45,120 nt of DNA from an uncultured Bacteroidota bacterium (GTDB lineage: Bacteria; Bacteroidota; Bacteroidia; Flavobacteriales; Flavobacteriaceae): positions 1 to 45,120 of the forward strand of contig CAKZOC010000121.1 in assembly GCA_937136025.1 (NCBI GenBank), written 5' to 3'. Below the pieces are notes generated by a model, which was not told the DNA's origin, searched no databases, and saw only the letters and a list, made by a program, of their open reading frames with translations. The position numbers were made by a program, and so were the translations under genes. Positions 10,442 to 27,855 of the stretch are shown here, in pieces. Each line of letters begins with the position of its first letter. Position 1 is the stretch's first letter.

Positions 10442-12631
10442 ATGATATTCAAGACGTTTAAAACGCTTCTCTTTGTTTTCCTGTTTTCCATTTGTTTTAT
10501 GGGGACTGCCCAGGTCAACTGGACAAACGACGGCGATTCTTATTTTAAACTGGAAAATAACGAGCTCAAAACCTATACCCTCCCGGGGCATGAGTCCACA
10601 ACGGTTATTTCCAAAGCACAACTCACTCCTGAAGGTCACTCAGAACCCCTGGAAGTTGCCCATTTTTCGTTTTCATCAGATCAGCAGAAAATACTCCTGT
10701 TTACAAATACCCAACGGGTTTGGAGGTTGAACACCAAAGGAGATTACTGGGTTTTTGACTTTAAAACCCATACGTTGAAGCAGCTTGGGCAAGGCCTTCC
10801 CCCGGCCTCCCTGATGTTTGCCAAATTCTCCCCGGATGGCACCAAAATCGCCTATGTTTCGGAAAACAACATCTATAGCGAAGACTACCAAAGCGGCAAC
10901 ATTCAACCCTTAACGACCAACGGCACTGTTACTTTAATTAACGGGACTTTTGACTGGGCGTATGAGGAAGAATTTTTCTGCAGAGATGGTTTTCGATGGA
11001 GCCCGGACAGCCAATCTATAGCCTACTGGCAAATCGATGCCAGTGCGATAAAGAAATTTTATATGATTGACAATACAGATTCGATCTATTCACAACTCAT
11101 CCCTTTGGAGTATCCTAAAGTGGGGGAAAGCCCGTCTGCCTGCCGGGTAGGAGTGGTACAACTCTCGGATGCCGAAACTACCTGGATGAATATCCCGGGA
11201 GACCCCTCCCAGAATTATCTGGTAAGAATGGAATATATTCCAAATACCAATGCGCTTTTACTCCAGCAGTTAAACCGTAAACAAAACAAGAGCACACTCT
11301 ACAGGGCAGACGCTTTAAACGGAAGGGCAGAATCGATTTTTGAAGAATCGGATGAGGCCTGGGTAGATATGTTTCAACTGGGCAATCCCTATGCCATAGA
11401 CTACACCAACAACTTCAGTTTTCTGGAGAAAACAAAGGGTATTCTCTGGGCTTCTGAAAAAGACGGTTGGCGGCACCTGTACCAGGTTTCTTTAGAGGGA
11501 AAGCCCGAGGTTCTGATCACCAAAGGGGACTTCGATGTGATAGATGTTAAGCACATCAATGCCAAAGAAGGGAATGTGTATTACCTGGCCTCACCCGGGA
11601 ATGCCACCCAGAAGTATTTGTACAAATCAAAACTAAACGGAAAAGGGAAAAACGAAAGGCTGAGCCCCGAAAGCCTTGCGGGTACCCATGATTATTCCTT
11701 TTCTTCCAACGGCGTCTATGCCCAGCATACTTTCTCAAATCACTTTACCCCTTCGTCAAAGGAATTCATAACCGTCTCCAACCACAAAGCCCTGACTCTA
11801 GAGGAAAGCATCACAGACAATCTTAAAAACATAGAAAAGGAGCCGACCATGGAGTTTTTTACCATTACCACGGAAGACGGCGTTGAAATGGACGGATGGA
11901 TGGTAAAACCGATCCCTTTTGATCCCTCCAAAAAGTACCCGGTAGTCTTTTATGTCTATTCTGAACCGGCGGGCACAACGGTAAATGATACCTATAACGT
12001 CGGACGGAACTGGTTTTATCAGGGCAATATGGCTGAGGATGGGTATGTTTATATTTCTCTGGACAACAGGGGTACGCCTGCTCCCAAAGGACGGCAATGG
12101 AGGAAGTCTATTTACAGAAAAATTGGTGTGGTGAATATCCGGGATCAGGCTATGGCCGCCCGTGAAGTTCTAAAATGGGATTTTGTGGACCCGGAACGGG
12201 TCGCGGTTTGGGGCCATAGCGGTGGGGGTTCGGCTACCCTGAATTTAATGTTTAAGCATCCCGATATCTATAAAACCGGTATTTCGCTGGCCGCAGTCGC
12301 CTATCAGCTGACCTATGACAATATCTACCAGGAACGCTACATGGGTTTACCCCAGGAAAACAAAGAAGATTTTATTATGGGATCTCCCGTTACCCATGCG
12401 AAGCATTTAGAGGGAAATTTGCTTTATATACACGGGACCGGAGATGACAATGTCCACTATCAAAATGCGGAATTACTAATAAACGAACTGATTAAACACA
12501 ATAAGCAATTTCAATTCATGCCGTATCCGAATCGCTCCCACGGGTTTAGTGAAGGAGAGGGCACCTGGGATCACCTCTCCACTTTATACACGAATTACCT
12601 CAAACTTCACTGCCCTCCGGGAGGAAGGTAA
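10442..12631 (+). CDS. Dipeptidyl peptidase IV-type S9B serine peptidase
   Basis: The 729-residue enzyme has a signal peptide (ending GTAQ), an N-terminal eight-bladed propeller (about 40-460) and a C-terminal alpha/beta-hydrolase domain. The catalytic triad is visible: Ser593 in GHSGGGSA, Asp668 in HGTGDDNVH and His700 in RSHGF. DWAYEEEF near residue 178 is the DPP-IV double-Glu motif that binds the peptide N-terminus. It probably removes X-Pro dipeptides from peptides in the periplasm. Length matches the bacterial family. The gene ends 17 bases from the convergent ABA4-like gene. Confidence 0.93.
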   Translation: MIFKTFKTLLFVFLFSICFMGTAQVNWTNDGDSYFKLENNELKTYTLPGHESTTVISKAQLTPEGHSEPLEVAHFSFSSDQQKILLFTNTQRVWRLNTKGDYWVFDFKTHTLKQLGQGLPPASLMFAKFSPDGTKIAYVSENNIYSEDYQSGNIQPLTTNGTVTLINGTFDWAYEEEFFCRDGFRWSPDSQSIAYWQIDASAIKKFYMIDNTDSIYSQLIPLEYPKVGESPSACRVGVVQLSDAETTWMNIPGDPSQNYLVRMEYIPNTNALLLQQLNRKQNKSTLYRADALNGRAESIFEESDEAWVDMFQLGNPYAIDYTNNFSFLEKTKGILWASEKDGWRHLYQVSLEGKPEVLITKGDFDVIDVKHINAKEGNVYYLASPGNATQKYLYKSKLNGKGKNERLSPESLAGTHDYSFSSNGVYAQHTFSNHFTPSSKEFITVSNHKALTLEESITDNLKNIEKEPTMEFFTITTEDGVEMDGWMVKPIPFDPSKKYPVVFYVYSEPAGTTVNDTYNVGRNWFYQGNMAEDGYVYISLDNRGTPAPKGRQWRKSIYRKIGVVNIRDQAMAAREVLKWDFVDPERVAVWGHSGGGSATLNLMFKHPDIYKTGISLAAVAYQLTYDNIYQERYMGLPQENKEDFIMGSPVTHAKHLEGNLLYIHGTGDDNVHYQNAELLINELIKHNKQFQFMPYPNRSHGFSEGEGTWDHLSTLYTNYLKLHCPPGGR

Positions 12632-14054: not shown

Positions 14055-14080
14055 TTTGTGCTTTCTATATAATATCTTTG
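14055..14080 (+). promoter_or_regulatory. Candidate promoter of the arsenosugar-type operon
   Basis: TATCTTTG at 14073-14080 is an exact TAnnTTTG -7 box. A TTTG lies at 14055-14058, 14 bases upstream, which is shorter than the usual spacing of about 19. The box is 63 bases before the first start codon, leaving a leader that contains a hairpin. Confidence 0.45.
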
Positions 14081-14092
14081 TAGTTGAACACA

Positions 14093-14124
14093 TACCCGTC
14101 TTTGTTCCTGATAACAGACGGGTA
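14093..14124 (+). promoter_or_regulatory. Nine-base-pair hairpin in the operon leader
   Basis: TACCCGTCT (14093-14101) and AGACGGGTA (14116-14124) are perfect complements around a 14-base loop, and GTTTTAA follows. It falls between the promoter box and the first gene, so it could be an attenuator, a 5' stabilising hairpin, or a palindromic operator. No leader ORF with an ATG lies in this stretch. Confidence 0.5.
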
Positions 14125-14143
14125 GTTTTAACGACTACAAGCC

Positions 14144-14767
14144 TTGTTGAGGTCTTCTTCCCGCGCCCTTCTTATTTTCACCCGGAATCCGGTTCCCGGA
14201 AAATGCAAAACCAGGTTGGCCGCCGCAATCGGTGAACAGGCAGCCCTGAATATCTACATTTATTTACTGCAGCATACAGCCTCCCAATGCGCCGGGCTTC
14301 CAGACGTACAAAAATTCGTGTATTTCAGTGAATCCTTAGGCGATGGCGCAATCTGGGACACCGACACATTTGATTATCGGCTGCAGCAAGGCGCGGATTT
14401 AGGGCTGCGGATGCAACGGGCTTTTGAGGATGCTTTTAAGTCCGGGTATCGCGAAGTGATTGTCATAGGGAGTGACCTGCTCGAGCTGCACACTTCCGAT
14501 CTTGAGCGTGCCTTTGACCTCTTGTCTGAAAACGAGGCCGTCCTCGGACCCGCCCAGGATGGAGGATATTACCTTCTCGGGCTTACGAAGCCCATTCCGG
14601 GTATTTTTCAGAACAAAGCCTGGGGCACAAAAACCGTTCTCAAAGAGACCCTTGGCGACCTCCGGAAATTTAAAACGGCCCTCTTGCCGGAACGAAATGA
14701 TATTGATCAGTACGAGGATATCGAGGGAAACCCGGTATTTGAACCCTTTTTAAAAAAGACTAAATGA
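14144..14767 (+). CDS. TIGR04282-type (DUF2064) glycosyltransferase, arsenosugar biosynthesis
   Basis: The 207-residue protein matches the DUF2064/TIGR04282 family, nucleotide-sugar-dependent GT-A-like enzymes found beside arsenosugar genes. Visible hallmarks are IFTRNPVPGKCKTRLA at 11-26, the central VIVIGSDLLEL, and GPAQDGGYYLLGL at about 137-149. No ATG begins the frame: after a TAA at 14129 the first candidates are tandem TTG codons at 14144 and 14147, so a TTG start is inferred. Its stop overlaps the next start by four bases (ATGA), showing translational coupling with the phosphorylase. It is expected to act in the cytoplasm; the sugar and acceptor are unknown. Confidence 0.82.
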   Translation: MLRSSSRALLIFTRNPVPGKCKTRLAAAIGEQAALNIYIYLLQHTASQCAGLPDVQKFVYFSESLGDGAIWDTDTFDYRLQQGADLGLRMQRAFEDAFKSGYREVIVIGSDLLELHTSDLERAFDLLSENEAVLGPAQDGGYYLLGLTKPIPGIFQNKAWGTKTVLKETLGDLRKFKTALLPERNDIDQYEDIEGNPVFEPFLKKTK

Positions 14768-15579
14768 CTCAAAAACAAGTATCGGCCTCCCTGGACTTTC
14801 TCAAGGGAAAAGGCTTTATGAATCCTGAAATAGGTATTGTCCTGGGCTCCGGACTCGGCCGGATGGCAGACGAAATTGAAGATGCCAAAATCGCGCATTA
14901 CCACAACATTCCATTCTTCCCGTTAGCCACGGTTGAATTTCATAGCGGAAAGCTCGTATACGGGACGTTGGAAGGTAAAAAGGTAGTGGTCATGCAGGGC
15001 AGGTTCCACCTTTATGAAGGATACGCCTTTACGGAAGTCACCTATCCCATACGGGTGATGCACGGTTTGGGCGTTCAAAAACTACTGATATCAAATGCTG
15101 CAGGCGCTGTAAACCTCGGTTTTAAGAAAGGTGAAATGATGCTTCTTGAGGACCATATCAACCTCCAGGGGGGGTCTCCTCTGGCATTTAAAAATGTTAC
15201 AGAATTCGGAGAACGGTTTGTAGACATGAGCGCTCCATATGATGCCGGTTTGCGAGAGGGCCTCCTCCGGATTAGCAGTGAAAAAGGAATTACGCTCAGA
15301 AGTGGCGTGTACGCAGCGGTTACCGGACCTCAACTGGAAACACGGGCCGAATACCGCATGTTGAAAACCCTTGGAGCGGATGCTGTGGGAATGAGTACGG
15401 TGCCCGAGGTGATCGTGGCGAACCAACTGAGTTTACCGGTTGCCGCCCTTTCGGTCCTGACCGATGAATGCGACCCGGATCATTTGGCTCCGGTGAATGT
15501 CGCAGAGATTATTAAAATCGCCAATGAAACTGAACCCCACATGGTCACCTTATTCCGGGGACTTATCGCCAGCCTCTAA
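14764..15579 (+). CDS. Purine nucleoside phosphorylase, predicted 6-aminopurine type
   Basis: The 271-residue protein is a trimeric-class purine nucleoside phosphorylase: GSGLG at 28-32, HSG at 60-62, GRFHLYEGY at 79-87, NAAGAVN at 111-117, and TGPQLETRAEY with Glu192 as the base-binding residue. At the position of the human enzyme's Asn243 (in TN) it has Asp234, within LTDECDPD. From established work, Asn at this site selects 6-oxopurines, while Asp favours 6-aminopurines, as in methylthioadenosine phosphorylase. Here it could release adenine from 5'-deoxy-5'-arsinoyl-adenosine, giving ribose-1-phosphate-type arsenosugar intermediates. General purine salvage is the alternative. The start overlaps the preceding gene by ATGA. 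Confidence 0.88.
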   Translation: MTQKQVSASLDFLKGKGFMNPEIGIVLGSGLGRMADEIEDAKIAHYHNIPFFPLATVEFHSGKLVYGTLEGKKVVVMQGRFHLYEGYAFTEVTYPIRVMHGLGVQKLLISNAAGAVNLGFKKGEMMLLEDHINLQGGSPLAFKNVTEFGERFVDMSAPYDAGLREGLLRISSEKGITLRSGVYAAVTGPQLETRAEYRMLKTLGADAVGMSTVPEVIVANQLSLPVAALSVLTDECDPDHLAPVNVAEIIKIANETEPHMVTLFRGLIASL

Positions 15580-15656
15580 ATGCAGCGGATCTGTAAGTAA
15601 TCTCCACCCGCTACTACTAAACCATAAATCATTCTTATTTAAAACCTTTTTCTCCC

Positions 15657-16622
15657 ATGAGTTATCTTCAAGCCACCTCAGATCTGTACAAAGAAGCGGC
15701 GTTGACACCCGATGTCGGGCTATGTTGTACGACCAATCCGATCTGGCAGCTCCCCGGACTCTCCATTCCCACTAAAATGCTGGAAATGAACTACGGCTGT
15801 GGAAGCACCGTATCGGCCCAGGATCTGACGGCAAATCCGAAGATTTTGTACGCCGGGGTCGGAGGCGGTATGGAACTGCTTCAATTCGCCTATTTCTCAA
15901 GACAAAAAGGCGGGGTTATAGGAGTAGATATCGTAGAAGAAATGCTGGAGGCCAGTCGGGAGAATTTTAAAATTGCCGAAGCCGAAAATCCGTGGTTTTC
16001 TTCTGATTTTGTGGAACTGGTCCACGGAGATGCCCTCAACCTGCCCGTCCCGGACCAGAGTGTGGATGTGGCGGCCCAGAATTGCCTTTTCAATATTTTT
16101 AAGGAAGAAGACCTGCGCAAAGCTGTGGCAGAAATGTACCGGGTGCTGAAACCCCACGGCCGCCTGGTGATGAGCGACCCGGTTTGCGATGTCCCCCTGA
16201 GTGATACCCTTCGCAATGACGACCGCCTGAGAGCCCTGTGTCTCAGCGGCAGCATCCCCGTTAAGGACTATATTAAAATACTCACCGATACCGGTTTCGG
16301 GACTATTGAAGTGCGTGCCAGACGCCTGTATCGAGTCCTCAGTCCGAACCACTATCCAGTTGATACCCTCATTCCGATTGAGTCCATTGAAGTGGCGGCC
16401 ATCAAAGATCCGATGCCTGAAGATGGGCCGTGTATTTTCACCGGAAAGACAGCTATCTATTACGGGAAGGAGGACTACTACGACGATCAGAAGGGGCACA
16501 TACTCTTACAGAATCAGCCTTTGGCCGTTTGCGACAAGACCGCGAAAGCCCTCAGCACGCTCCCTGCGGAAATCTACGTAAGTGAGAGCACCTGGCACTA
16601 TACAGGCGGAGGCTGCTGCTGA
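15657..16622 (+). CDS. arsM: Arsenite S-adenosylmethionine methyltransferase, ArsM
   Basis: The 321-residue enzyme matches the ArsM type found in cyanobacteria and Bacteroidota. It would methylate arsenite to mono- and dimethylarsenicals in the cytoplasm. The SAM site is ILYAGVGGGMELL at 63-75. Cysteines that can bind As(III) are Cys143 (AQNCLFN) and Cys195 (LRALCLSG), which match conserved ArsM positions, with Cys48 (NYGCGS) a likely third. Additional pairs sit at Cys23-Cys24 (LCCTT) and at the extreme C-terminus (GGGCC, 320-321), a feature of this subgroup. A 77-base gap separates it from the phosphorylase and 53 bases from the DUF547 gene. An ArsR repressor is not seen nearby. Confidence 0.87.
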   Translation: MSYLQATSDLYKEAALTPDVGLCCTTNPIWQLPGLSIPTKMLEMNYGCGSTVSAQDLTANPKILYAGVGGGMELLQFAYFSRQKGGVIGVDIVEEMLEASRENFKIAEAENPWFSSDFVELVHGDALNLPVPDQSVDVAAQNCLFNIFKEEDLRKAVAEMYRVLKPHGRLVMSDPVCDVPLSDTLRNDDRLRALCLSGSIPVKDYIKILTDTGFGTIEVRARRLYRVLSPNHYPVDTLIPIESIEVAAIKDPMPEDGPCIFTGKTAIYYGKEDYYDDQKGHILLQNQPLAVCDKTAKALSTLPAEIYVSESTWHYTGGGCC

Positions 16623-16675
16623 ATTTTCAAAATGTAAACCCCGAGGACTCTGGAGTCTGAAGACTTTCCAACCCT

Positions 16676-17419
16676 ATGTGCCGAGCTGTTTTTTTTATGT
16701 TGCTCCTTTTGGTTACCTCCAGTGGCCTGCCTCAGGACAAAAGGGTTTCTCCCGGGAGTTCGACAACTCCCCCCCACTCCCCCTGGGAAATCTTGCTGCA
16801 AGAGCATGTTCATGACGACGGAAGGGTCGACTATAAAGGTTTCCTCAAAGATCAGCAGCGGTTGAATTCTTATTTGGGAGCACTTGCCTTAAATCCTCCT
16901 CAGGAGGATTGGACGCCCCAGGCGAGAATGGCCTATTACATCAATCTGTACAATGCGGGGACTGTAGCCCTGATCCTGGAAAATTATCCTGTAAAAAGCA
17001 TCCGGGATATTGACAGGCCCTGGGCAAAAAAAAGAGTCCGGGTGGGCACTGAATGGCTTTCTCTCTCAGATATTGAACACAAAATTTTACGCAAAATGGG
17101 AGATGCCCGAATTCACTTTGCCATCAACTGTGCATCGATTTCGTGTCCGAAGCTGCCTAAATACGCCTTTACAGAAGCGAAAATCGAATCCCAGCTCGAA
17201 AGGGCCGCCCGCGGGTTTATCAATGATCCCGAGCGCAATACCCTTAATGCGGACAAGGCTGAAGTATCCAAAATCTTTAAATGGTTTCGTTCGGATTTTA
17301 AAGCTGATGAGGGTTCTCTAGTCGAATACCTGAATCGCTTTCTGGAAAAGCCCATCCCAAAGGGCACTTCGGTTGGTTTTTTGCCCTACGACTGGGCTTT
17401 AAATGACATCGACCCGTGA
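16676..17419 (+). CDS. DUF547 domain protein, secreted
   Basis: A 247-residue protein with a signal peptide (hydrophobic 5-18) and one DUF547 domain. Family motifs are MAYYINLYNAGTV (85-97) and IHFAINCASISCPKL (146-160), with His147, Cys152 and Cys157. DUF547 proteins often sit beside redox and arsenosugar genes, but their activity is unknown; the domain has a papain/transglutaminase-like pattern by inference. It is the only clearly exported product of this operon. Its stop overlaps the next start by four bases (GTGA). Confidence 0.82.
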   Translation: MCRAVFFMLLLLVTSSGLPQDKRVSPGSSTTPPHSPWEILLQEHVHDDGRVDYKGFLKDQQRLNSYLGALALNPPQEDWTPQARMAYYINLYNAGTVALILENYPVKSIRDIDRPWAKKRVRVGTEWLSLSDIEHKILRKMGDARIHFAINCASISCPKLPKYAFTEAKIESQLERAARGFINDPERNTLNADKAEVSKIFKWFRSDFKADEGSLVEYLNRFLEKPIPKGTSVGFLPYDWALNDIDP

Positions 17420-18144
17420 CCGAGCTGAGCATTATTATTCCCACGCTGAATGAAGCTCCACGTCTGACGTTTTTGCTGCCCTATCTCCAGAGAAACCTGG
17501 AAGCCCCCGCAAACGTTGAGATCATTATCGCCGATGGAGGAAGTTCAGATGGCACACAAGACATGGGCCGGAAACTGGGAGCTGTTGTTCTGAGTACTCC
17601 TACTGGCCGGGCCGTTCAGATGAATGCGGGCGCAGAAAAAGCCCGGGGACGCATTCTGTACTTTCTGCATGCCGATTCCATACCCCCGAAAAATTTCTAT
17701 TCCGAAATTCTCAAAACCCTTGAAAAAAGAGATACGGCCGGTTGTTTCAGACTTCGCTTTGAACCTTCCAATCCCACGCTGGACGCTTTTGCATGGTGCA
17801 CCCGACTGAACATACCCTTGTGCCGGGGTGGAGATCAGTCCCTCTTTCTACCTCGCATCTGGTTTGAAGCTCTGGGGGGTTTTGACGAGCGCTATCGGAT
17901 CTACGAAGACAATGAACTGATCGGAAGGCTTTACCGACAATACACCTTTACGGTCCTTACCCCGGAGCTTGTGACCTCCTCGCGCCGCTATCAGCAACTC
18001 GGCACTTATCGCCTCCAGTTTTATTACGCCATGGTACATTTAAAAAAATTCTTCGGAGCCTCCCCCGAGGCGCTGTATCGCTATTATAAAAACCATGTTC
18101 AGGGCGGGGGCGAAATCAGTGCTTCTGGAAGTAGTCGCGAATAA
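17416..18144 (+). CDS. TIGR04283-type family 2 glycosyltransferase, arsenosugar biosynthesis
   Basis: The 242-residue enzyme has the GT-A fold of GT2: SIIIPTLNEAPRL at 5-17, ADGGSSDGT at 39-47, and the DxD-equivalent HAD at 85-87. GGDQSLFLPRIWFEALGGFDE and EDNELIGRL near 170 agree with the TIGR04283 group, which occurs with arsenosugar biosynthesis genes. It starts with GTG at 17416, overlapping the DUF547 stop. It probably adds or transfers the sugar/glycerol part of the product, which is inference. Its last 29 bases overlap the end of the convergent GH113-like gene. Confidence 0.83.
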   Translation: MTELSIIIPTLNEAPRLTFLLPYLQRNLEAPANVEIIIADGGSSDGTQDMGRKLGAVVLSTPTGRAVQMNAGAEKARGRILYFLHADSIPPKNFYSEILKTLEKRDTAGCFRLRFEPSNPTLDAFAWCTRLNIPLCRGGDQSLFLPRIWFEALGGFDERYRIYEDNELIGRLYRQYTFTVLTPELVTSSRRYQQLGTYRLQFYYAMVHLKKFFGASPEALYRYYKNHVQGGGEISASGSSRE

Positions 18145-19114
18145 CGCCTTCTGCAGGTTTATTCTGGGGCGTAAACCGATTGTCCCCGGGGCCCCCGGCT
18201 CTGGAATGATGTATAAACCATTTCCAGACAAAGCCTCCTGCAAACCAATCCTCCGACCAGAATTCTTCAAACAGGGCTTCTTTGGCATTGGCCTGGGCTT
18301 CCAGGTTAACCGCCTCTTCATTGCGATCGACCAGCCAGGGTTTTTTGGCGGTATAATCCATACTGCGGTACCCGAACTCCGTAAAGAGGACCGGCCTGCC
18401 CACAGTCTGTTGAAGGGCCTCGATTTCGGCTTTCCATCTTCCCCAACCCGCCCGCAGTTCGGCTACCCCGGGATTTCGGGCTTCCGAGAGCGGAAAATAG
18501 GCATCGATCCCGATAAGGTCCAGGTCCTGCCAAAAAGAAATCCGTTTGTACTCATCCCAGTTCGCGGCGTAGGTGAGCTTTCCTGAATACCGTTCCCGGA
18601 CATTGCGGATGAGCCATTTCCAGTACGCAGGCCTGTGCTTCACAAAGGTTTCGAGCTCGGTACCGATACAAAACAGGCCTACTCCGGTTGCCTCTGCCAG
18701 TTCCGCATAGGTCAGAATAAAATCGGCATAATGCCATTCCAAACGCTTCCAATCCTCCTCGGAGGTCATTTCCAATTCCCCCGTAAAGATTCCCCTCCAT
18801 ATCCAGAGTTGCGGTTTGAGCATCACCCGGATCCCGTTCTTGTGGAGCAGGTCGATATACTGCCGGGCTCCCTGTCGGGTCTCCCCAAACCACTGCCGTT
18901 CGGTATCAAAAATGATCTCAGGGCTACCCATCTCCCGGATAAACCCAAAAGGCATTACAGCCGCGTAGCCCGCATGTACCGCTCGAAGGGCCTCTATGTG
19001 CTCTAAGTCCGCGGGCTCCCGCGAAGCCACAAAACTCACCCCGTTGATTTTTTCAAGGTCAGGGGCCGTACAGCCGTAACAAAAGAGCAAGAAAAGGAGG
19101 GCAATTCGCCTCAT
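18116..19114 (-). CDS. GH113-like TIM-barrel glycosidase lipoprotein
   Basis: The 332-residue protein has a lipoprotein-like signal ending YGC (Cys15) and a TIM-barrel resembling GH113 beta-mannanases. VMLKPQLWIWRG, LFCIGTELETF (Glu153 or 155 as acid/base) and PVLFTEFGYRS (Glu246 as nucleophile) are the catalytic regions, followed by GGFVWKWF. The substrate may be a mannan or a manno-oligosaccharide, by family. It is divergent from the FAD oxidoreductase gene (109 bases between) and convergent with the arsenosugar-type operon, so it is transcribed separately. Confidence 0.78.
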   Translation of the reverse strand: MRRIALLFLLFCYGCTAPDLEKINGVSFVASREPADLEHIEALRAVHAGYAAVMPFGFIREMGSPEIIFDTERQWFGETRQGARQYIDLLHKNGIRVMLKPQLWIWRGIFTGELEMTSEEDWKRLEWHYADFILTYAELAEATGVGLFCIGTELETFVKHRPAYWKWLIRNVRERYSGKLTYAANWDEYKRISFWQDLDLIGIDAYFPLSEARNPGVAELRAGWGRWKAEIEALQQTVGRPVLFTEFGYRSMDYTAKKPWLVDRNEEAVNLEAQANAKEALFEEFWSEDWFAGGFVWKWFIHHSRAGGPGDNRFTPQNKPAEGVIRDYFQKH

Positions 19115-19223: not shown

Positions 19224-20525
19224 ATGCATATTGTAATTATTGGAAATGGAATTTCAGGAATTACCGCTGCACGACATATTCGCAAAGGCTCGGATTATAA
19301 AATCACCGTAGTCTCCTCTGAAAGCGACCACTTTTTCTCACGTACCGCCCTGATGTATATCTATATGGGGCATATGAAATACGAACACACCAAGCCTTAT
19401 GAGGATTCCTTCTGGAAAAAGAACCGTATCGGGCTCATGAGGGCTAAAGTTACGGCCGTGGTTCCGGCATCAAAATCGCTGGTTCTGGAAGATGGCGGAG
19501 CACTGAGTTACGACAAACTCATTATCGCCTCGGGCTCCCAGCCCAATCGTTTCGGTTGGCCCGGACAGGATCTCAAAGGAGTTCAGGGGCTGTATTCCCT
19601 CCAGGATCTGGAGGCGCTGGAGGTCCATGCTCCGGATAAAAAACAATGCCGGCGTGCTGTGATAGTGGGTGGAGGCCTCATTGGTATTGAATTGGCCGAG
19701 ATGCTGCGCAGCCGTAATATTCCTGTGACCTTCCTGGTTCGGGAATCGAGTTTCTGGAACGGCGTATTGCCGAAAGGGGAGTCGGCCATGATAAACGAGC
19801 ATATTCGCCAGCACCACGTAGACCTGCGCCTGGGTACCAACCTGAAGGAAATCCTTTCGGACGAATCGGGAAGGGCGCGGGCCGTCATCACCGACCAGGA
19901 CGAAGAAATCGAATGTGACCTGGTAGGCCTCACGGCCGGAGTACGACCCAATATCGGTTTTCTCGAAAATTCGGGCATAGAAACCGACAAAGGGGTACTG
20001 GTAGACCGGTATTTACAAACCAATATCCGCGATGTTTATGCCATCGGTGATTGTGCCCAACAGCGCATCCCTATCGGGAAACGTCGGGCTGTGGAAGCCG
20101 TTTGGTACACCGGACGTATGATGGGTGAAACCCTGGCCCGGACAATATGCGGGCAGGATATGGAATACAGACCGGGACACTGGTTTAATTCCGCCAAATT
20201 CTTTGATATTGAATACCAGACCTATGGATGGGTATCCGGGTCCGGGAGCATGGATCCCGAAGAACAACATTTTCACTGGAGACATCCCAATGAACTCCTC
20301 TGCCTGACGATAGCCTACGATGTAAAAACCCGAAAATTTCTGGGAATCAACACCTTTGGGATCCGATTGCGGCATGAAGTGGTAGACCAGTGGCTGACTC
20401 AGGAACTCACCATAGACCAGGTGCTGGAACGTCTCCCAGAGGCGAATTTTGACCCGGAACAGTACCGCCGGTATGAAGGTGACATCTTACACACATTTAC
20501 CTCTAATACCGAACAAACGCTATGA
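19224..20525 (+). CDS. NAD(P)/FAD-dependent oxidoreductase
   Basis: A 433-residue two-dinucleotide-domain flavoprotein: GNGISG at 7-12 binds FAD, VGGGLIGIELAE at 148-159 binds NAD(P)H, and VYAIGDC near 275 contacts FAD. The pattern is that of the NADH-dependent ferredoxin/rubredoxin reductase and nitrite-reductase-like group. There is no redox-active CxxC. It overlaps the membrane ferredoxin gene by four bases (ATGA), so the two probably form an electron-transfer pair at the inner membrane. The electron acceptor is unknown. The C-terminal 120 residues are a domain of uncertain role. Confidence 0.85.
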   Translation: MHIVIIGNGISGITAARHIRKGSDYKITVVSSESDHFFSRTALMYIYMGHMKYEHTKPYEDSFWKKNRIGLMRAKVTAVVPASKSLVLEDGGALSYDKLIIASGSQPNRFGWPGQDLKGVQGLYSLQDLEALEVHAPDKKQCRRAVIVGGGLIGIELAEMLRSRNIPVTFLVRESSFWNGVLPKGESAMINEHIRQHHVDLRLGTNLKEILSDESGRARAVITDQDEEIECDLVGLTAGVRPNIGFLENSGIETDKGVLVDRYLQTNIRDVYAIGDCAQQRIPIGKRRAVEAVWYTGRMMGETLARTICGQDMEYRPGHWFNSAKFFDIEYQTYGWVSGSGSMDPEEQHFHWRHPNELLCLTIAYDVKTRKFLGINTFGIRLRHEVVDQWLTQELTIDQVLERLPEANFDPEQYRRYEGDILHTFTSNTEQTL

Positions 20526-22117
20526 CGACCCTGGAATCTATGTCCCTGGCCGGAGGACCTCCTAAAAGTTTGAAAAACGGTCAAAAGCTGGCGGTTTTTC
20601 TCGGCCTTTCGAGTGTATGTATTCTTCTGCTCGCCACTTTTGGTTTTGATTTTCCAAACCAGGGGTTCTGGCTGACAGCCTCCCTGATCGGGATCTTAAT
20701 GGGAGTCATCGGGTTCAGCTGGGCAACCTATAAGGGGGAACCCAAGGGAATCAAAAATCACGGGGTACAGTTTAAATCCATTTCCGGACGAGGCCTTTGG
20801 GCCTGGGCCCTGGGGATTGTACTGACCACATTCTACATCGTTCTGTATTTCTATCCGGAGTACCTCGGCCTGGTCAAAGACGGCCCCAACCGGGGGTTGA
20901 TTTCTCTTTTTGACCCCTTGAGCCGCTCCTTAAGTGGCAATCCGGCCAGCCAGTGGTTTGTTTACGGCACCCTTTATACCCTGGCTATTTTAGCCTTCGG
21001 GATCAAGTTTCTCTGGAAGTACCGCCACAACCGGTATCAGCGTCTCAGAACCCTGAGCGTAATGTTTTTCCAAACCGCTTTTGCCTTTATCATTCCTGAA
21101 ATCATGGCGCGGCTCAATGGGGATCTTCCGTACTACGACCTGAAAAACATCTGGCCCCTGAATTATTATAACTTCGAGCGGTATCGGGTCAACGCCTTTA
21201 TCGATTCCGGGGATATCGGCCTTGGGATGCTCATCTTCGGGATACTCTCCATCCTGGTCATCACCCCCCTGCTCACCTATTTTTACGGAAAACGCTGGTA
21301 CTGTTCCTGGGTGTGCGGCTGCGGGGGTCTGGCAGAAACGGCAGGGGACTCCTTTCGACAACTCAGCGATAAAAGCACGTTTGCCTGGAAGGTAGAACGG
21401 TGGGTGGTGCACAGTGTCCTTGTTTTTGTGGTCCTGATGACTACCGCCGTTATCTACTCCTATCTGGGTTCCGATAACAGCAAATACTGGCTCAGTAAAT
21501 CCCAGTTTCTTATGGGAGTGGGTGTGCTGCTGACCGCTATCTTCACCTGGGTCATGGTCTTCAGGCGAAAGGCCCTTAAAAAAGATGCCCTCTACGGGGC
21601 TGCAGGCTACATGATTATTATTCTTGGCCTGTTAGCCATCCACGGCTTCAGCGATGCCAAACACATCTTTATCTTCTCCTCCGAAAGCCTGAGAAAGACC
21701 TATAGTTTTCTCATCGGAAGTATATTTTCCGGGGTTATCGGAACGGGCTTTTACCCGATTTTCGGCAATCGGGTATGGTGCCGGTTTGGCTGTCCTATGG
21801 CGGCGATCCTCGGTCTGCAACAACGGCTCTTCTCCCGCTTCCGCATTACCACCAACGGCGGACAGTGCATCTCCTGCGGAAATTGCTCCACCTATTGTGA
21901 AATGGGTATAGATGTGCGCGCTTACGCACAGAAGGGAGCAAACATAGTCCGCGCGAGTTGTGTGGGTTGTGGAATTTGCTCCGCGGTCTGCCCCAGGGGC
22001 GTGTTGAAACTCGAAAACGGTCCGCGCAAGGGAAGGATTAACCCCAGGGAAGTGCTGTTGGGCAACGACGTAAACCTGATGGAGTTAGCCAATCAAAATT
22101 CAGATACGGCCTATTGA
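20522..22117 (+). CDS. Polytopic 4Fe-4S membrane ferredoxin (NapH/CcoG-like)
   Basis: The 531-residue protein has about eight membrane helices and four cysteine clusters: CSWVCGC (261-267), CRFGCP (420-425), CISCGNCSTYC (449-459) and CVGCGICSAVCP (480-491). The last two are classic ferredoxin [4Fe-4S] sites, and the first two match the membrane cysteine motifs of NapH, NosR and CcoG-type proteins. It likely moves electrons between the quinone pool or a ferredoxin and the flavoprotein encoded just upstream. In Bacteroidota, related genes occur near arsenosugar and other redox clusters. No heme site is seen. Confidence 0.83.
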   Translation: MTTLESMSLAGGPPKSLKNGQKLAVFLGLSSVCILLLATFGFDFPNQGFWLTASLIGILMGVIGFSWATYKGEPKGIKNHGVQFKSISGRGLWAWALGIVLTTFYIVLYFYPEYLGLVKDGPNRGLISLFDPLSRSLSGNPASQWFVYGTLYTLAILAFGIKFLWKYRHNRYQRLRTLSVMFFQTAFAFIIPEIMARLNGDLPYYDLKNIWPLNYYNFERYRVNAFIDSGDIGLGMLIFGILSILVITPLLTYFYGKRWYCSWVCGCGGLAETAGDSFRQLSDKSTFAWKVERWVVHSVLVFVVLMTTAVIYSYLGSDNSKYWLSKSQFLMGVGVLLTAIFTWVMVFRRKALKKDALYGAAGYMIIILGLLAIHGFSDAKHIFIFSSESLRKTYSFLIGSIFSGVIGTGFYPIFGNRVWCRFGCPMAAILGLQQRLFSRFRITTNGGQCISCGNCSTYCEMGIDVRAYAQKGANIVRASCVGCGICSAVCPRGVLKLENGPRKGRINPREVLLGNDVNLMELANQNSDTAY

Positions 22118-22150: not shown

Positions 22151-22840
22151 ATGCAAACTATTGCTCTTATTATTCCGGCTTACAATGAAGAAAAATCCAT
22201 CGGGAATGTCCTGTCTGACATCCCGTCAATGGTCTCAGAAACAGTAGTGGTAGACAACAATTCCACCGACCGCACCGCTGAAAAAGCCAGAGCCGGGGGC
22301 GCAACCGTACTTCATGAATCCAGGAAAGGTTATGGTTACGCCTGTCTGAAAGGTATTGATTATCTGAGCAAAAGATCCAGGAGGCCCGATATTATCGTAT
22401 TTATGGATGGTGACTATTCCGACTACCCTGAGGAACTGCCCGCTGTAGTCGCTCCTATTTTGGAGGAGGGTAAGGATATGGTCATAGGGGCTCGGGTGAA
22501 AAGCCTGCGGGAAGAGGGTTCAATGACCCCTCAACAGGTGTTTGGAAACGCCCTGGCCACAACTCTGATGAAAGTGCTTTTCGGAGCCACATATACAGAC
22601 CTGGGGCCTTTCAGAGCGATCCGGTTTGACGCTTTGGAGTCCCTGGAAATGGAAGACAAGACCTATGGCTGGACGGTTGAAATGCAGCTCAAAGCTCTGA
22701 AAAAAAAGCTTGCATACACTGAAGTCCCAGTGCGTTACAGAAAAAGAATTGGGGTCTCAAAGGTCTCCGGCACGGTAAAAGGTAGTATCTTTGCGGGCGT
22801 TAAAATCTTAGGCTGGATTTTTAAATATAGTTTAAAATAA
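22151..22840 (+). CDS. Family 2 glycosyltransferase, polyprenyl-phosphate glycosyl transferase-like
   Basis: The 229-residue GT2 enzyme carries ALIIPAYNEEKSIGNVL at 5-21, VVDNNSTDRT at 33-42, and MDGDYSDYPEE near 90, where DGD holds the metal. The C-terminal VRYRKRIGVSKVSGTVKGS resembles dolichyl-phosphate mannose synthase-like enzymes. It has no extra membrane domain of its own. It lies 33 bases after the membrane ferredoxin and three bases before a processive GT2, so all are probably one transcript. It may make a polyprenyl-phosphate sugar used by the GT-C enzyme, by inference. Confidence 0.82.
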   Translation: MQTIALIIPAYNEEKSIGNVLSDIPSMVSETVVVDNNSTDRTAEKARAGGATVLHESRKGYGYACLKGIDYLSKRSRRPDIIVFMDGDYSDYPEELPAVVAPILEEGKDMVIGARVKSLREEGSMTPQQVFGNALATTLMKVLFGATYTDLGPFRAIRFDALESLEMEDKTYGWTVEMQLKALKKKLAYTEVPVRYRKRIGVSKVSGTVKGSIFAGVKILGWIFKYSLK

Positions 22841-22843
22841 AAC

Positions 22844-24328
22844 ATGGGACTAACCATCGCTTACATTATCATCGGGATTTACACGCTGTCGCTCCTGCTC
22901 ATCTTTATGTATAGCCTGGCTCAGCTGAATTTGCTGGTCAACTACCTCGGGCAGAGACGAAACCAGAAGGAAGCGCCGAAATTCAACCTGATGGACCCCC
23001 GGGAGATTCCGCTGGTGACGGTGCAGCTCCCTATTTACAATGAACAATACGTCATCGAGCGGCTGCTGGCCAATATCGCCCTGCTCGAATACCCTAAGAG
23101 CAAACTGGAAATACAGGTGCTTGACGATTCCACAGACGACTCCGTACAGGAAACAGCGGAAAGGATTGCAGCCCTGGCAAAAACCGGTCTGGACATTCAG
23201 CATATTTGCAGATCAAACCGGGAAGGCTTTAAAGCAGGGGCCCTTAAAGAAGGACTTAAGATCGCTAAGGGCGAGTTTATCGCCATTTTTGATGCGGACT
23301 TCCTGCCTGATGCCGATTGGCTTAAAAAGACAGTTCCTTACTTTAAGGATGCAGAGATTGGGGTAGTCCAAACCCGTTGGGGGCATATCAACCGCGATTA
23401 TTCTACCCTCACGCGGATACAGGCTTTCGCTCTGGACGCCCACTTTACGCTGGAGCAAGTTGGTCGCAATGCCAAAGGGCATTTTATCAACTTCAACGGT
23501 ACGGCCGGGATCTGGAGAAAAGAGTGTATTCTCGACGCAGGAAATTGGGAAGGGGATACCTTAACAGAAGATCTCGACCTCAGTTACCGGGCACAATTAA
23601 AAAACTGGAAGTTCAAATACCTGGAAAATGTGGAAACTCCGGCCGAGCTTCCTGTAGTTATCAGCGCAGCCCGGTCCCAACAATTTCGCTGGAACAAAGG
23701 CGGTGCAGAGAACTTCCGCAAGACCGTTTGGAGCGTATTGCAGGCAAAGAACATTCCTTTTAAAACCAAATTTCACGGGGTCATGCACCTGTTGAACAGC
23801 TCCATGTTCCTCTGTGTTTTCCTGGTGGCTATTCTCAGCATTCCGATGTTGTACATCAAAAACTCCTTCGGACATCTGGCATTGGTTTTCGAGCTCACCA
23901 GTTTCTTTATCGTCAGTACCATCATTCTTTTTGTCTGCTACTGGTTTACCTATAAAAGCATTCAGGGAAGCGGACTGGATAACTTCGTGTCGTACATTAA
24001 GCTGTTTTTCACCTTCTTTTCGGTGGCGCTCGGCTTCTCTCTACACAATAGCGTAGCCGTTCTCGAAGGGCATATGGGCAAGCGGTCTGAATTTGTGCGC
24101 ACCCCTAAGTTTAACATCAATAGTCTTAAAGACAGTTGGAAGGGAAATAAGTACCTGGTCAAGAAAATCTCCCCAAATACCATTCTGGAGTTTGGACTGA
24201 TGCTCTATTTCCTTTTTGGAATGTACAGCGCCATTCCCCTGAATGATTTCGGACTTTTTCCGTTTCACTTCATGCTCTTCCTCGGGTTCGGCTTTGTGTT
24301 TTTGAAATCCGTTACCTCTAAAGTATAA
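22844..24328 (+). CDS. Cellulose-synthase-like family 2 glycosyltransferase, membrane
   Basis: The 494-residue enzyme has an N-terminal helix, a cytoplasmic GT2 domain (about 50-290) and four C-terminal helices. The D,D,D,QxxRW signature is visible: DDSTDDS near 97, FDADFLPDAD near 149, TEDLDLSYR near 242, and QQFRWNKGG near 281. That is the signature of beta-glycan or glycolipid processive transferases (mannan or glucan synthase-like). The sugar cannot be predicted. There is no c-di-GMP PilZ domain. Confidence 0.83.
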   Translation: MGLTIAYIIIGIYTLSLLLIFMYSLAQLNLLVNYLGQRRNQKEAPKFNLMDPREIPLVTVQLPIYNEQYVIERLLANIALLEYPKSKLEIQVLDDSTDDSVQETAERIAALAKTGLDIQHICRSNREGFKAGALKEGLKIAKGEFIAIFDADFLPDADWLKKTVPYFKDAEIGVVQTRWGHINRDYSTLTRIQAFALDAHFTLEQVGRNAKGHFINFNGTAGIWRKECILDAGNWEGDTLTEDLDLSYRAQLKNWKFKYLENVETPAELPVVISAARSQQFRWNKGGAENFRKTVWSVLQAKNIPFKTKFHGVMHLLNSSMFLCVFLVAILSIPMLYIKNSFGHLALVFELTSFFIVSTIILFVCYWFTYKSIQGSGLDNFVSYIKLFFTFFSVALGFSLHNSVAVLEGHMGKRSEFVRTPKFNINSLKDSWKGNKYLVKKISPNTILEFGLMLYFLFGMYSAIPLNDFGLFPFHFMLFLGFGFVFLKSVTSKV

Positions 24329-24478: not shown

Positions 24479-25861
24479 ATGATCCGGGCCCTGATTACCT
24501 TCTGGAACCTTCACCGCATTTCCATTTTACTGGTTGCGTTAGGCCTTGTTTTTTATGGGGTCTTTGGTTATGAACTGGACCGGTCCGATTCTATACGCCT
24601 GGTTACCCTGTTTGCAGCCCTGTTTTTCCTCTCTTACAAATTGATTCAGTTTGAAAAGTGGAACCTGCGGTTTATGGTCACCAGTGGCTTGCTCTTCAGG
24701 GTGGTTTTGCTTTTTACCCTGCCCAACCTCTCCCAGGATTTTTATCGGTTTATCTGGGATGGCAACCTGATCCTCGAAGGCCTGAATCCCTATATGCTGA
24801 CTCCGGATGCATGGATGGCACGGGGCGGACCCGCGTTTCCAGCGGCTTCTGAAATCTACGAGGGAATGGGAAGTCTCAGTGGTGCCCACTACAGCAATTA
24901 TCCCCCCGTAAACCAGTATTTCTTTGCCCTTTGCGCCTATCTGGGTGGCCAGACCATCCTCGGGTCCGTGATCAGTATGCGTGTGCTGATCATCCTGGCC
25001 GATCTGGGGATTTTGTACTTCGGAAGGCGCATCCTGAAAAAAATCAATCGGGCCCCCCATCTGATTTTCTGGTACTTCCTGAACCCTCTGGTGATTATTG
25101 AACTCACAGGCAACCTCCATTTTGAAGGCGTCATGTTGTTTTTCTTTGTGCTCGCCATGTTCCTGATTGTCTCAGGAAAGTGGTTTCTGGCCGTGATTCC
25201 CTATGCGTTTTCGATAGGTGTCAAACTGATTCCGTTGCTTTTTTTACCCCTTTTACTACCCTTACTCGGGTGGAAAAGAGTTTCGGGATTCTATATAGGG
25301 ACAGCCCTTATGCTCGGGGTATTGCTCTATCCATTCTATTTTCCGGAATTCTCGGACCACTACAGTCAGACACTGCGCCTGTGGTTTTCCAATTTTGAAT
25401 TTAATGCGAGTTTATACAATCTGGTTGAATCAGTGGCCGTAAGCCAGGGTGCAAAGCCATGGGAGTTTATCAAGCAATACGGGGCGATCATTCCGGGGCT
25501 CACCGCCCTGATCACCCTGATCGTCTGCGCCCACCCCATCGTCAGGTTGTCAAAATACTGGTTCGGCGCAGCGTTGCTGGTGATTTGCGTGTATTATTTT
25601 ATGGCCACTACGGTACATCCGTGGTATATTATTTTTCCGCTTTTGCTCAGCACCTTTACAAACTTTAGGTTTATGTATCTCTGGTCTGCGACCATTGTAT
25701 TGAGTTATATCGCCTACGGGGAGGAAGGGGTCGAAGAACGACCCTGGGTTTTGATTCTTGAATATGCTGTGGTCTTTGGCTTTCTTATTTATGAAATCAT
25801 CAGAAATAAACGGAATCTCTCGGCTATTGCCAAAAACCAGGTGAGAACCCCTGCTGATTAA
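24479..25861 (+). CDS. GT-C fold mannosyltransferase-like integral membrane protein
   Basis: The 460-residue protein has 10-12 membrane helices. LSQDFYRFIWDGNLILEGLNPY near residues 85-105 has the acidic first-loop motif of polyprenyl-phosphate-dependent GT-C enzymes, and SNYPPVNQYFFAL follows. Annotated relatives are called mannosyltransferases, although donor and acceptor are not proven. It begins 150 bases after the previous gene, with a GCAGGAG ribosome site near 24459-24465, and could share the upstream transcript. The 5' gap holds no gene. Confidence 0.75.
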   Translation: MIRALITFWNLHRISILLVALGLVFYGVFGYELDRSDSIRLVTLFAALFFLSYKLIQFEKWNLRFMVTSGLLFRVVLLFTLPNLSQDFYRFIWDGNLILEGLNPYMLTPDAWMARGGPAFPAASEIYEGMGSLSGAHYSNYPPVNQYFFALCAYLGGQTILGSVISMRVLIILADLGILYFGRRILKKINRAPHLIFWYFLNPLVIIELTGNLHFEGVMLFFFVLAMFLIVSGKWFLAVIPYAFSIGVKLIPLLFLPLLLPLLGWKRVSGFYIGTALMLGVLLYPFYFPEFSDHYSQTLRLWFSNFEFNASLYNLVESVAVSQGAKPWEFIKQYGAIIPGLTALITLIVCAHPIVRLSKYWFGAALLVICVYYFMATTVHPWYIIFPLLLSTFTNFRFMYLWSATIVLSYIAYGEEGVEERPWVLILEYAVVFGFLIYEIIRNKRNLSAIAKNQVRTPAD

Positions 25862-26053: not shown

Positions 26054-26671
26054 ATGAAAATTGTAGTTGCTGATGCATCACATATAAAATTTGCAGCCGT
26101 GATCTCGGAAACCATTACCGAATCGGCTAAGGTCAGGGGTACCGGCATCGCCAAAAGGACTCCGGAGTATATCATCCAGCGTTTGAAAAATGAAAACGCC
26201 GTGATCGCCATCGACGGGGACCGCTTTGCGGGTTTCTGTTATATCGAAGTCTGGAGTCATCAGAAATACGTCGCGAATTCCGGTCTTATCGTACATCCCG
26301 ACTATCGGAACCGCGGGCTGGCCAAGCAGATTAAAAAGGCCATTTTTGAGCTATCCCGCAAGAAATTCCCGGAAGCCAAAATCTTCGGAATCACTACGGG
26401 GCTGGCGGTGATGAAAATCAATTCAGAACTGGGCTACCGCCCGGTGACCTATTCCGAACTCACCGACGACCCCCAGTTCTGGAAAGGCTGCCAGACGTGC
26501 AAGAATTTCGACGTCCTTACCCGCACCAACCGCAATATGTGCCTCTGTACCGGGATGCTTTACGACCCAAAACAAGAGCCCTCAAAGCCAGTGCCCAGCC
26601 TGGATAAAAAATCCTTCGAACGATTGAAAAACCTGAAGCAAAAACTTCTTTCAAAGAAAAAGAAACCATGA
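26054..26671 (+). CDS. GNAT N-acetyltransferase leading the arginine operon
   Basis: A 205-residue GNAT-fold protein: SGLIVHPDYRNRGLAKQIKKA (about 75-95) is the acetyl-CoA-binding motif A. A cysteine-containing tail (GCQTCKNFDVLTRTNRNMCLCTGM) is characteristic of the Bacteroidota GNAT that heads arginine operons. It is the natural candidate to acylate glutamate (the ArgA step), because no argA or argJ is present. That role is inferred from position. The frame reaches TTG 26048, but ATG 26054 gives the usual N-terminus. Its TGA overlaps argG by ATGA. Confidence 0.8.
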   Translation: MKIVVADASHIKFAAVISETITESAKVRGTGIAKRTPEYIIQRLKNENAVIAIDGDRFAGFCYIEVWSHQKYVANSGLIVHPDYRNRGLAKQIKKAIFELSRKKFPEAKIFGITTGLAVMKINSELGYRPVTYSELTDDPQFWKGCQTCKNFDVLTRTNRNMCLCTGMLYDPKQEPSKPVPSLDKKSFERLKNLKQKLLSKKKKP

Positions 26672-27855
26672 AAAAACTCGTTTTGGCATATAGCGGAGGT
26701 CTGGACACCTCCTATTGCGCCCACTACCTGTCCCACGAAGAAGACTATGAAGTGCACGCCGTTACGGTAAACACTGGTGGTTTTGACGGGGAAGCCCTGA
26801 AAGAAATTGAGTCCAGAGCCCTGGAGCTGGGGGTGCATTCTTACCGGGCCATAGACGCCGTGCAGTCCTTTTACGACCGGGTGGTCCGGTATCTGGTCTT
26901 TGGAAACATTCTCAGAAACAATACCTACCCCCTTTCGGTAAGTGCCGAGCGTATTGTTCAGGCCATGGAAATCGCCCAATATGCGCGGGATACCGGAGCG
27001 ACCCATATCGCTCATGGAAGCACTGGGGCAGGCAACGACCAGGTGCGCTTTGATCTGATTTTTCAGATTATGGTTCCGGAGGTCGAAATCATCACCCCAA
27101 TTCGGGATAACAAGCTCTCGCGGGAAGCAGAAATCAAATACCTTCAGAATGCGGGCATACCCTATGCCTGGGAGAAAGCGAAATATTCCATCAATAAAGG
27201 GTTGTGGGGAACTTCAGTGGGAGGAGAAGAAACCCTGGGATCGCGTAATCCCCTGCCCGATCATGCCTACCCAAGTCCCCTTGTAAAGGAAGATCCCGAG
27301 ACGGTCACCCTGGAATTTACCCAAGGAGAATTAACGGCAGTGAATGGAAACGAGGATACACCCGTAGCCAATATCCTGAAACTCGAAGCCCTGGCTTCCA
27401 ACTACGCTATTGGCAGAGATATCCATGTGGGGGATACGATTATCGGTATCAAAGGACGTGTGGGTTTTGAAGCAGCCGCCCCTTTGATTATCCTGAAATC
27501 CCATCACCTTTTGGAGAAACATACCCTGAGTAAATGGCAGCAATTTCAAAAAGAACAACTGGGAAGTTTTTACGGGATGCTCCTGCATGAAGGACAATAT
27601 CTGGATGAAGTTATGCGCAATATCGAGGCTTTTCTCGAAGATTCTCAGCGGAACGTCAGCGGTCGCGTTTTTGTAAAACTCCATCCCTATCGCTTTGAAC
27701 TTGAAGGGATCGAATCGAAAAACGACCTGATGGATGCCTCTTTTGGAAGTTATGGGGAACTCAACCGGGGTTGGTCGGCAGCGGATGCCAAAGGATTTAT
27801 CAAAATCCTCTCTAATTCAGGGCGTATTGCTTCTCAAATACAAACGGACTCATGA
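26668..27855 (+). CDS. argG: Argininosuccinate synthase
   Basis: The 395-residue enzyme joins citrulline and aspartate with ATP to form argininosuccinate. The PP-loop AYSGGLDTS is at about 6-14, GSTGAGNDQVRFD near 111-123, and the central substrate segment KYSINKGLWGTSVGGEE near 171-187. Length agrees with the family. It overlaps the genes on both sides by four bases. Confidence 0.95.
   Translation: MKKLVLAYSGGLDTSYCAHYLSHEEDYEVHAVTVNTGGFDGEALKEIESRALELGVHSYRAIDAVQSFYDRVVRYLVFGNILRNNTYPLSVSAERIVQAMEIAQYARDTGATHIAHGSTGAGNDQVRFDLIFQIMVPEVEIITPIRDNKLSREAEIKYLQNAGIPYAWEKAKYSINKGLWGTSVGGEETLGSRNPLPDHAYPSPLVKEDPETVTLEFTQGELTAVNGNEDTPVANILKLEALASNYAIGRDIHVGDTIIGIKGRVGFEAAAPLIILKSHHLLEKHTLSKWQQFQKEQLGSFYGMLLHEGQYLDEVMRNIEAFLEDSQRNVSGRVFVKLHPYRFELEGIESKNDLMDASFGSYGELNRGWSAADAKGFIKILSNSGRIASQIQTDS

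Follow-up and report, generated by a model that had tools for sequence, protein, structure and literature searches.

In seaweed, arsenosugars rank among the major forms of arsenic. The window analysed here, a whole stretch of 45,120 nucleotides, carries a five-gene operon of arsenosugar type but does not encode ArsS, the radical SAM enzyme of arsenosugar biosynthesis. This raises two questions. First, is the pathway completed by an ArsS elsewhere in the genome, or does the operon make a different arsenical? Second, which gene products could carry the ArsS product on to the glycosyltransferase?

The five-gene operon and the ArsS locus

The operon consists of five co-directional genes on the + strand. 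They encode a TIGR04282 (DUF2064) protein (14144–14767; TIGR04282 210 bits, cut-off 134), a purine nucleoside phosphorylase (PNP) of the 'non-His' type (14764–15579; NF006054 335 bits, cut-off 218), the arsenosugar-type arsenite methyltransferase ArsM (15657–16622; NF038099 549 bits, cut-off 400), a DUF547 protein (16676–17419; PF04784 88.7 bits, cut-off 27) and a TIGR04283 glycosyltransferase of the GT2 type (17416–18144; TIGR04283 222 bits, cut-off 182). The first and last gene pairs overlap by four bases (ATGA at 14764–14767 and GTGA at 17416–17419), and the remaining two intergenic gaps are 77 and 53 bases. The tight spacing, the two overlaps and the match to the arsenosugar gene set, all described in an earlier note on this DNA, are confirmed. 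The methyltransferase, TIGR04282 and TIGR04283 proteins fall inside the arsenosugar families in the model search which that note had proposed, and judged by family models the operon is indeed of the arsenosugar type.

Cys48, Cys143 and Cys195 of ArsM align with Cys72, Cys174 and Cys224 of the arsenic methyltransferase 4kw7 (numbering by hand), which we take to be the arsenic-binding cysteines. Together with C23-C24 and C320-C321 they are invariant in all 15 aligned ArsM proteins, so the cysteine sites noted earlier are indeed present. The DUF547 protein has a hydrophobic N terminus (residues 1–19, by hydropathy) and is likely exported.

A whole-genome profile search with TIGR04167, also suggested by the earlier note, found no ArsS within the 45-kb window, as had been stated. 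The sole match above the cut-off of 300 in the genome lies on another contig, C136, with 446 bits, and a third contig holds one weak match of 30.5 bits. The supposition that ArsS lies elsewhere is thus borne out: with its gene on a second contig of this genome, the bacterium likely has the whole pathway, divided between two loci. On C136, ArsS is accompanied by a TIGR04169 peroxidase-like gene, a second TIGR04282-like gene and a TetR gene. The two-locus layout is seen again within the genus; in this comparison TetR was looked for within 1.5 kb flanks only. In four congeners ArsM and ArsS share one contig at a distance of 422–490 kb, so the split is genuine and assembly breaks are ruled out as its cause.

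In a class survey of 295 genomes, ArsM of this type occurs in 24. The common layout, with ArsS and ArsM in the same cluster, is found in 19 of these and is not the one found here; the two genes are unlinked in the other five, which means that complete pathways are missed when ArsS is sought only next to ArsM. A sub-sample of 44 of the 295 genomes was made up of all 24 ArsM genomes and, from those lacking ArsM, the first 20 in the list.

The downstream FAD-polyferredoxin-glycosyltransferase module

Through the comparison of operon neighbours among relatives that the earlier note had recommended, it was found that the operon is one part of a wider recurrent gene neighbourhood. Neighbours were counted, at chosen score thresholds, in the best 80 of 560 confirmed named ArsM loci (590 stretches matched); these 80 come from close relatives only, and some are short contigs. 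The convergent neighbour, a GH113-like protein (18116–19114, − strand; PF22612 150 bits), is found in 63 of these 80 loci. It is followed on the + strand by an FAD-dependent pyridine nucleotide-disulphide oxidoreductase-like protein (19224–20525; PF07992 185 bits), present in 54 of the same 80, whose gene overlaps by four bases that of a membrane polyferredoxin (20522–22117) with about nine hydrophobic segments and C-terminal 4Fe-4S motifs (Pfam Fer4 families and hydropathy). The predicted structure of the polyferredoxin was a poor model (pLDDT 57) and was dropped.

Three further + strand genes encode an AglJ-like GT2 glycosyltransferase of the polyprenyl-phosphate type (22151–22840; TIGR04182 120.6 bits, below the cut-off of 325), a membrane GT2 resembling PgaC and cellulose synthase (22844–24328; TIGR03937 118.9 bits, below the cut-off of 422), which is present in 43 of 47 ArsS genomes, and a polytopic protein with about ten hydrophobic segments (24479–25861). 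The last is weakly similar to the polyprenol-phosphomannose-dependent mannosyltransferases MptA/MptB (TIGR03459 40.5 bits and NF038066 34.8 bits, both below cut-offs).

Does this module belong to the arsenic pathway? It could equally well be unrelated to arsenic and share only lifestyle, ancestry and chance synteny with the ArsM and ArsS genes, and we give this explanation an even chance. It is favoured by the 17 of 57 polyferredoxin genomes that lack ArsS, and by 17 stretches (3.9 to 19 kb) from ArsS-less genomes in which the FAD-polyferredoxin pair is accompanied by none of ArsS, ArsM, PNP, TIGR04282 and TIGR04283. However, the polyferredoxin is found in 40 of 47 ArsS genomes against 17 of 248 without ArsS (295 genomes; kinship uncorrected). 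In just 11 of these 40 is it no more than 20 kb from ArsS or ArsM, yet linkage by chance, assumed at 2.5%, would give about one such genome (binomial p 2.8e-9), and the linkage is kept between families in which the gene order of the module is shuffled (L103, L104, L111 and L115). This co-occurrence ties ArsS strongly to a membrane electron-transfer and glycosyltransferase module and suggests a larger pathway. A specific form of it, an enlarged Bacteroidota pathway, appears improbable to us: an NAD(P)H-FAD-polyferredoxin membrane chain would power the arsenic or ArsS chemistry, polyprenyl-phosphate glycosyltransferases would build a lipid-linked cell-surface arsenoglycan, and the 'non-His' phosphorylase and a nucleotidyltransferase would supply activated arsenoribose.

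Candidate enzymes for the steps after ArsS

The available parts of PMC12159101, PMC12608789, PMC7338719, PMC4308819, PMC7271239, PMC13171826 and PMC8552651 contain no description of the steps after ArsS, and searches of an open-licence library showed no description of flavobacterial arsenosugar clusters. The operon offers two testable assignments for the steps that lead from the ArsS product to the glycosyltransferase: a phosphorylase whose 5' pocket is altered, then a nucleotidyltransferase. The aliphatic residue of the cluster PNPs, the CofC-like fold of the TIGR04282 protein and the co-occurrence of the downstream module with ArsS are new observations.

The earlier note counted two glycosyltransferases in the operon. 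Both proteins score above the cut-offs of their family models, but for the TIGR04282 protein the label is doubtful on the grounds of the modelled fold. Its predicted structure (pLDDT 94.2) has a CofC-like fold, the closest folds being CofC-type nucleotidyltransferases (7p97 and 6bwg/6bwh). The likeness to these guanylyltransferases is one of fold, whereas the sequence scores are far below the CofC cut-offs (TIGR03552 24.7 bits against 105; PF01983 19.3 bits against 22). The fold suggests sugar-phosphate activation, and we predict from the model that the protein activates an arsenosugar 1-phosphate with a nucleotide. The alternative that the model name is right and the protein a genuine glycosyltransferase, with the arsenoribosyl group moved directly from the 1-phosphate or the nucleoside, has in our view somewhat less than an even chance.

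For the PNP, the positions of His257 and Asn243 of human PNP were placed by alignment to 8swu and by an equivalence that we assume. Valine presumably occupies the His257 position in 5'-methylthioadenosine phosphorylase (MTAP) as well. In the cluster PNPs an aliphatic residue stands at the position of the 5'-OH-contacting histidine in all 87 aligned rows (V246 in the operon PNP), which fits a 5'-arsinoyl substrate. Both human residues are described in the part of PMC4308819 available, where the hydrogen bond between His257 and the ligand 5'-OH is not strongly persistent in simulation. The operon PNP resembles MTAP in its predicted substrate, a 5'-substituted adenosine, and in having an aliphatic residue at the His257 position and aspartate at the Asn243 position. 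Unlike MTAP, it is a PNP by family, with 95.3 bits on TIGR01694, below the cut-off of 274.85. The idea that Asp234 is an adenine switch specific to arsenosugars was rejected, since the residue is shared by 87 of 87 cluster rows and 39 of 43 rows from outside. With duplicates of earlier outside rows removed, 39 outside rows were left; of these, G252near and one cluster row are the same protein, and G230b sits at a contig end. The PNP tree of 68 rows, which took one in four named-locus PNPs, was made by a quick method with column 246 retained.

From its sequence, we predict that the operon PNP releases adenine from the ArsS product. Could it instead be an ordinary purine-salvage enzyme that is in the operon by chance, with another enzyme removing adenine? 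The operon PNP is the sole TIGR01697 match in the genome and is matched well by inosine-guanosine PNP models, the cluster lacks a PNP in 14 of the 24 ArsM genomes of the class survey, and non-His PNPs also occur in two genomes lacking both ArsM and ArsS. Against these points, a PNP is found in 77 of the best 80 named ArsM loci (of 560 confirmed), the histidine is missing throughout the cluster PNPs, and genomes with two PNPs (e.g. G247, G083, G111 and G252) keep the His type outside the cluster. We regard the salvage explanation as unlikely.

The predicted pathway, related systems and control signals

We consider it probable that an arsenosugar pathway is spread over two contigs, its larger half in the window and the half with ArsS on the other contig, and that the two would jointly make dimethylarsinoyl-ribosides from arsenite. 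ArsM, with its arsenic-binding cysteines in place, would convert arsenite to the dimethyl form, as known for the family, and ArsS would join the dimethyl arsenic to the 5'-deoxyadenosyl group of SAM, as published for homologues. Judging by its active-site residues, the PNP would swap adenine for phosphate to give 5-deoxy-5-dimethylarsinoyl-ribose 1-phosphate, which the CofC-like protein may then activate with a nucleotide; transfer of the arsenoribosyl group to an acceptor would fall to the TIGR04283 enzyme. That the operon instead yields a different arsenical without ArsS, or only methylates arsenic, is very improbable: ArsS lies outside the window, and hundreds of kilobases away in congeners, but its presence in the same genome makes a different arsenical unneeded and removes the basis of that suggestion in the earlier note, all 24 ArsM genomes of the class survey have ArsS, as do 20 of 21 with ArsM among relatives (the exception being a 74% complete genome), and the operon ArsM matches the arsenosugar model far better than the arsinothricin ArsM model NF040538 (102.7 bits, cut-off 500).

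Arsenosugar biosynthesis by ArsM and ArsS is described for SsArsM and SsArsS of Synechocystis in the available parts of PMC8552651 and PMC12159101, which also present the arsinothricin pathway as pairing ArsM with a radical SAM enzyme. As in Synechocystis, ArsM and ArsS are here encoded in one genome, which also has TIGR04282, TIGR04283 and TIGR04169 genes. Unlike in that system, ArsS has a locus of its own that includes a TetR gene, and the ArsM operon has a PNP and a DUF547 gene and is followed by the FAD-polyferredoxin-glycosyltransferase module. The arsinothricin and bisenarsan pathways likewise lead to bacterial organoarsenicals, and the low NF040538 score sets the operon ArsM apart from the former.

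The claim that the window encodes neither ArsR nor an arsenite pump stands for the proteins scanned with NCBIfam (part at E 1e-20 and 1e-10) and Pfam, with eight genes at 26668–34957 covered by Pfam only; it is less firm for a small ArsR, the scan having taken in a minority of the short ORFs and not the gene at 10442–12631. A widely conserved RNA leader was rejected: among 44 upstream regions, the nearest relative's is the only one with the pattern, and an Rfam search for a leader gave no match. A consensus promoter was likewise rejected, sigma-70-like matches being at chance level (16 against 14.3 ± 4.3). Terminator-like matches exceed those in shuffles (29 against 16.7 ± 4.5).

ArsS lies on another contig of the same genome

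The five genes at 14144-18144 of the window, in the order TIGR04282, PNP, ArsM, DUF547 and TIGR04283, run in the same direction where the earlier note had placed them, and two of their junctions overlap by four bases (14764-14767 and 17416-17419). Their assignment to the arsenosugar families also stands: four of the five exceed the curated NCBIfam cut-offs (TIGR04282, NF006054 for PNP, NF038099 for arsenosugar ArsM, and TIGR04283), and DUF547 exceeds its Pfam cut-off. Three ArsM cysteines, which we take to be the arsenic-binding ones, are kept in an alignment to arsenic methyltransferase 4kw7 and are invariant in all 15 aligned ArsM proteins. These gene families, and their association with arsenosugars, were already known, as the NCBIfam model names state.

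The earlier note had left it open whether the missing radical SAM enzyme, ArsS, lies elsewhere. When the assembly that contains the window (280 contigs, 3.38 Mb in total, 99.97% complete) was searched with TIGR04167, ArsS was located on contig C136, as the sole match above the cut-off (446 bits); a weak match of 30.5 bits was found on contig C169. The ArsS protein contains a CX3CX2C motif. Its gene is neighboured on the same strand by a TetR gene, by one for the TIGR04169 "arsenosugar biosynthesis-associated peroxidase-like" protein (197 bits against a cut-off of 120) and by another TIGR04282-like gene, which at 81 bits stays under the cut-off of 134.

This genome has a second, weaker match to the ArsM model (C199:6227-6841, 90.8 bits against a cut-off of 400), which may represent a further ArsM-type methyltransferase. 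The leader 5′ of the operon (14075-14150) folds with -26.2 kcal/mol (z -4.87 against shuffles), and a similar layout is present in Robiginitalea aurantiaca (locus L198); 43 other upstream regions were checked for the pattern, and all lacked it.

Separation of ArsM and ArsS among relatives

Among the matches listed, the nearest named relative is R. aurantiaca, with an ArsM 90% identical, so that the window likely comes from Robiginitalea. Of 60 genomes searched as relatives, the window's own included, 25 have ArsS, 21 have ArsM and 20 have both. The two genes are less than 10 kb apart in 12 of these 20 and unlinked in the other eight, where they lie either on different contigs (the own genome, G299 and G329) or far apart on one contig, at distances of ~490 kb (G295), 422 kb (G296), 463 kb (G300), 450 kb (G301) and 572 kb (G314). 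The split is genuine and recurs within the genus. Two further genomes of the genus, G297 and G298, have neither gene, G303 has ArsS without ArsM, and G302 (74% complete) has ArsM without ArsS.

Each of the eight unlinked genomes, like G303, has a TetR gene adjoining ArsS; at the remaining 16 ArsS loci examined, none was seen within 1.5 kb of ArsS. Such a separate TetR gene points to possible regulation of ArsS independently of ArsM. TetR is no exclusive mark of the split, since GT82b, AhpD, ArsS, ArsM and TetR stand together at L240 and L262, two of the best 80 of 560 confirmed ArsM neighbourhoods in close relatives (hereafter named loci).

Over the class (295 genomes), ArsM was found in 24 genomes and ArsS in 47. 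Every ArsM genome has ArsS, and 23 ArsS genomes are without an NF038099-type ArsM. The two genes are at most 20 kb apart in 19 of the 24, and on different contigs in the remaining five (the own genome, G118, G142, G188 and G252).

The cluster PNP and a proposed pathway

Aligned to 8swu, the operon PNP has D234 opposite an Asn and V246 opposite a His, positions that presumably correspond to Asn243 and His257 of human PNP. Both human residues are binding-site residues according to PMC4308819. D234 was dropped as an arsenic-related residue, because most PNPs outside ArsM/ArsS loci also have it and it is uninformative on arsenic. All 87 PNPs of ArsM/ArsS loci (77 from the named loci, the best 80 of 560, and 10 found in the class survey) have Ile, Val or Leu at position 246, where 22 of 43 PNP rows outside such loci have His. 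With repeats dropped (39 rows), His occupies this position in 12/15 outside PNPs from genomes without ArsM and ArsS, 10/22 from ArsM genomes and 0/2 from genomes with ArsS alone. Counted per genome, a non-His PNP is present in 19 of 24 ArsM genomes versus 2 of 14 with neither gene (Fisher p 1.5e-4, kinship ignored). In the PNP gene tree, a single change sets the His and non-His types apart (support 93).

From these residues, we infer that the cluster PNP would act on a 5′-substituted adenosine. A fixed role is opposed by the ArsM genomes themselves, only 10/24 of which have a PNP within the fetched cluster stretches and 5/24 of which have a His-type PNP alone. The operon PNP is the only TIGR01697 match in its genome, and thus may also have an ordinary role.

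In the pathway that we propose, ArsM would dimethylate arsenic and ArsS would adenosylate the product, as expected from their families (PMC8552651 and PMC12159101). By inference, PNP would then take off adenine, the TIGR04282 protein would perform activation and the TIGR04283 protein transfer. In the open-licence literature, which takes in few subscription journals, we found no account of the two-locus layout of the genus, of the "non-His" PNP type, of TIGR04282 read as a nucleotidyltransferase, or of the wider module described below.

A second module and other neighbouring genes

3′ of the operon, a convergent GH113-like gene is followed by an FAD oxidoreductase and a membrane polyferredoxin with a four-base overlap, an AglJ-like glycosyltransferase (GT), a PgaC/cellulose-synthase-like GT and a polytopic protein with weak likeness to MptA/MptB; an acetyltransferase-like gene and arginine-pathway genes lie from 26048 on. 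At the named loci (best 80 of 560, up to 10 kb per side, self-chosen score thresholds), PNP was found at 77, TIGR04282 at 76, DUF547 at 68 and TIGR04283 at 64. GH113 was found at 63, FAD at 54, polyferredoxin at 49, AglJ-like GT at 35, PgaC-like GT at 30 and the polytopic protein at 20; ArsS was found at 34 and an AhpD-like gene at 33. A family including a rhodanese-like protein stands 5′ of or near the operon at 63 of these 80 (e.g. L200:7728-8276); all 18 stretches checked from the own genome and near relatives lack it.

In other families, module genes lie near ArsM or ArsS in altered order (L103, L104, L111, L115 and L123). Over the class survey, polyferredoxin is present in 40/47 ArsS genomes versus 17/248 others, and PgaC-like GT in 43/47 versus 24/248. 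Where ArsS and polyferredoxin occur in one genome (40 cases), polyferredoxin lies no more than 20 kb from ArsS or ArsM in 11. In the fetched stretches of the 17 ArsS-less genomes with the FAD-polyferredoxin pair, ArsM, ArsS, PNP, TIGR04282 and TIGR04283 are absent; DUF547 is present there in four of the genomes and a GH113-like gene in a single one. This speaks against a fixed link, and the pair therefore has some role separate from, or broader than, arsenic.

A fatty acid hydroxylase-family gene (PF04116) recurs by arsenosugar clusters (L109:4704-5588, L100, L103, L123 and L236), in five genomes among the class-survey stretches and at 16 of the named loci (best 80 of 560). Within the window, 40919-43962 encodes a glycerol kinase, an aquaglyceroporin-like channel and a glycerophosphodiester phosphodiesterase-like protein. 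Arsenite can enter through aquaglyceroporins, and arsenosugars with glycerol as the aglycone are known; a link between these genes and the pathway is speculative. Nitrilase-family, prenyltransferase, GHMP-kinase-like and diphosphomevalonate decarboxylase-like genes are consecutive at 36397-40634, and a glyoxalase-like protein at 9876-10385 matches TIGR03645 (glyox_marine) with 266.6 bits, barely over the cut-off of 262.05.
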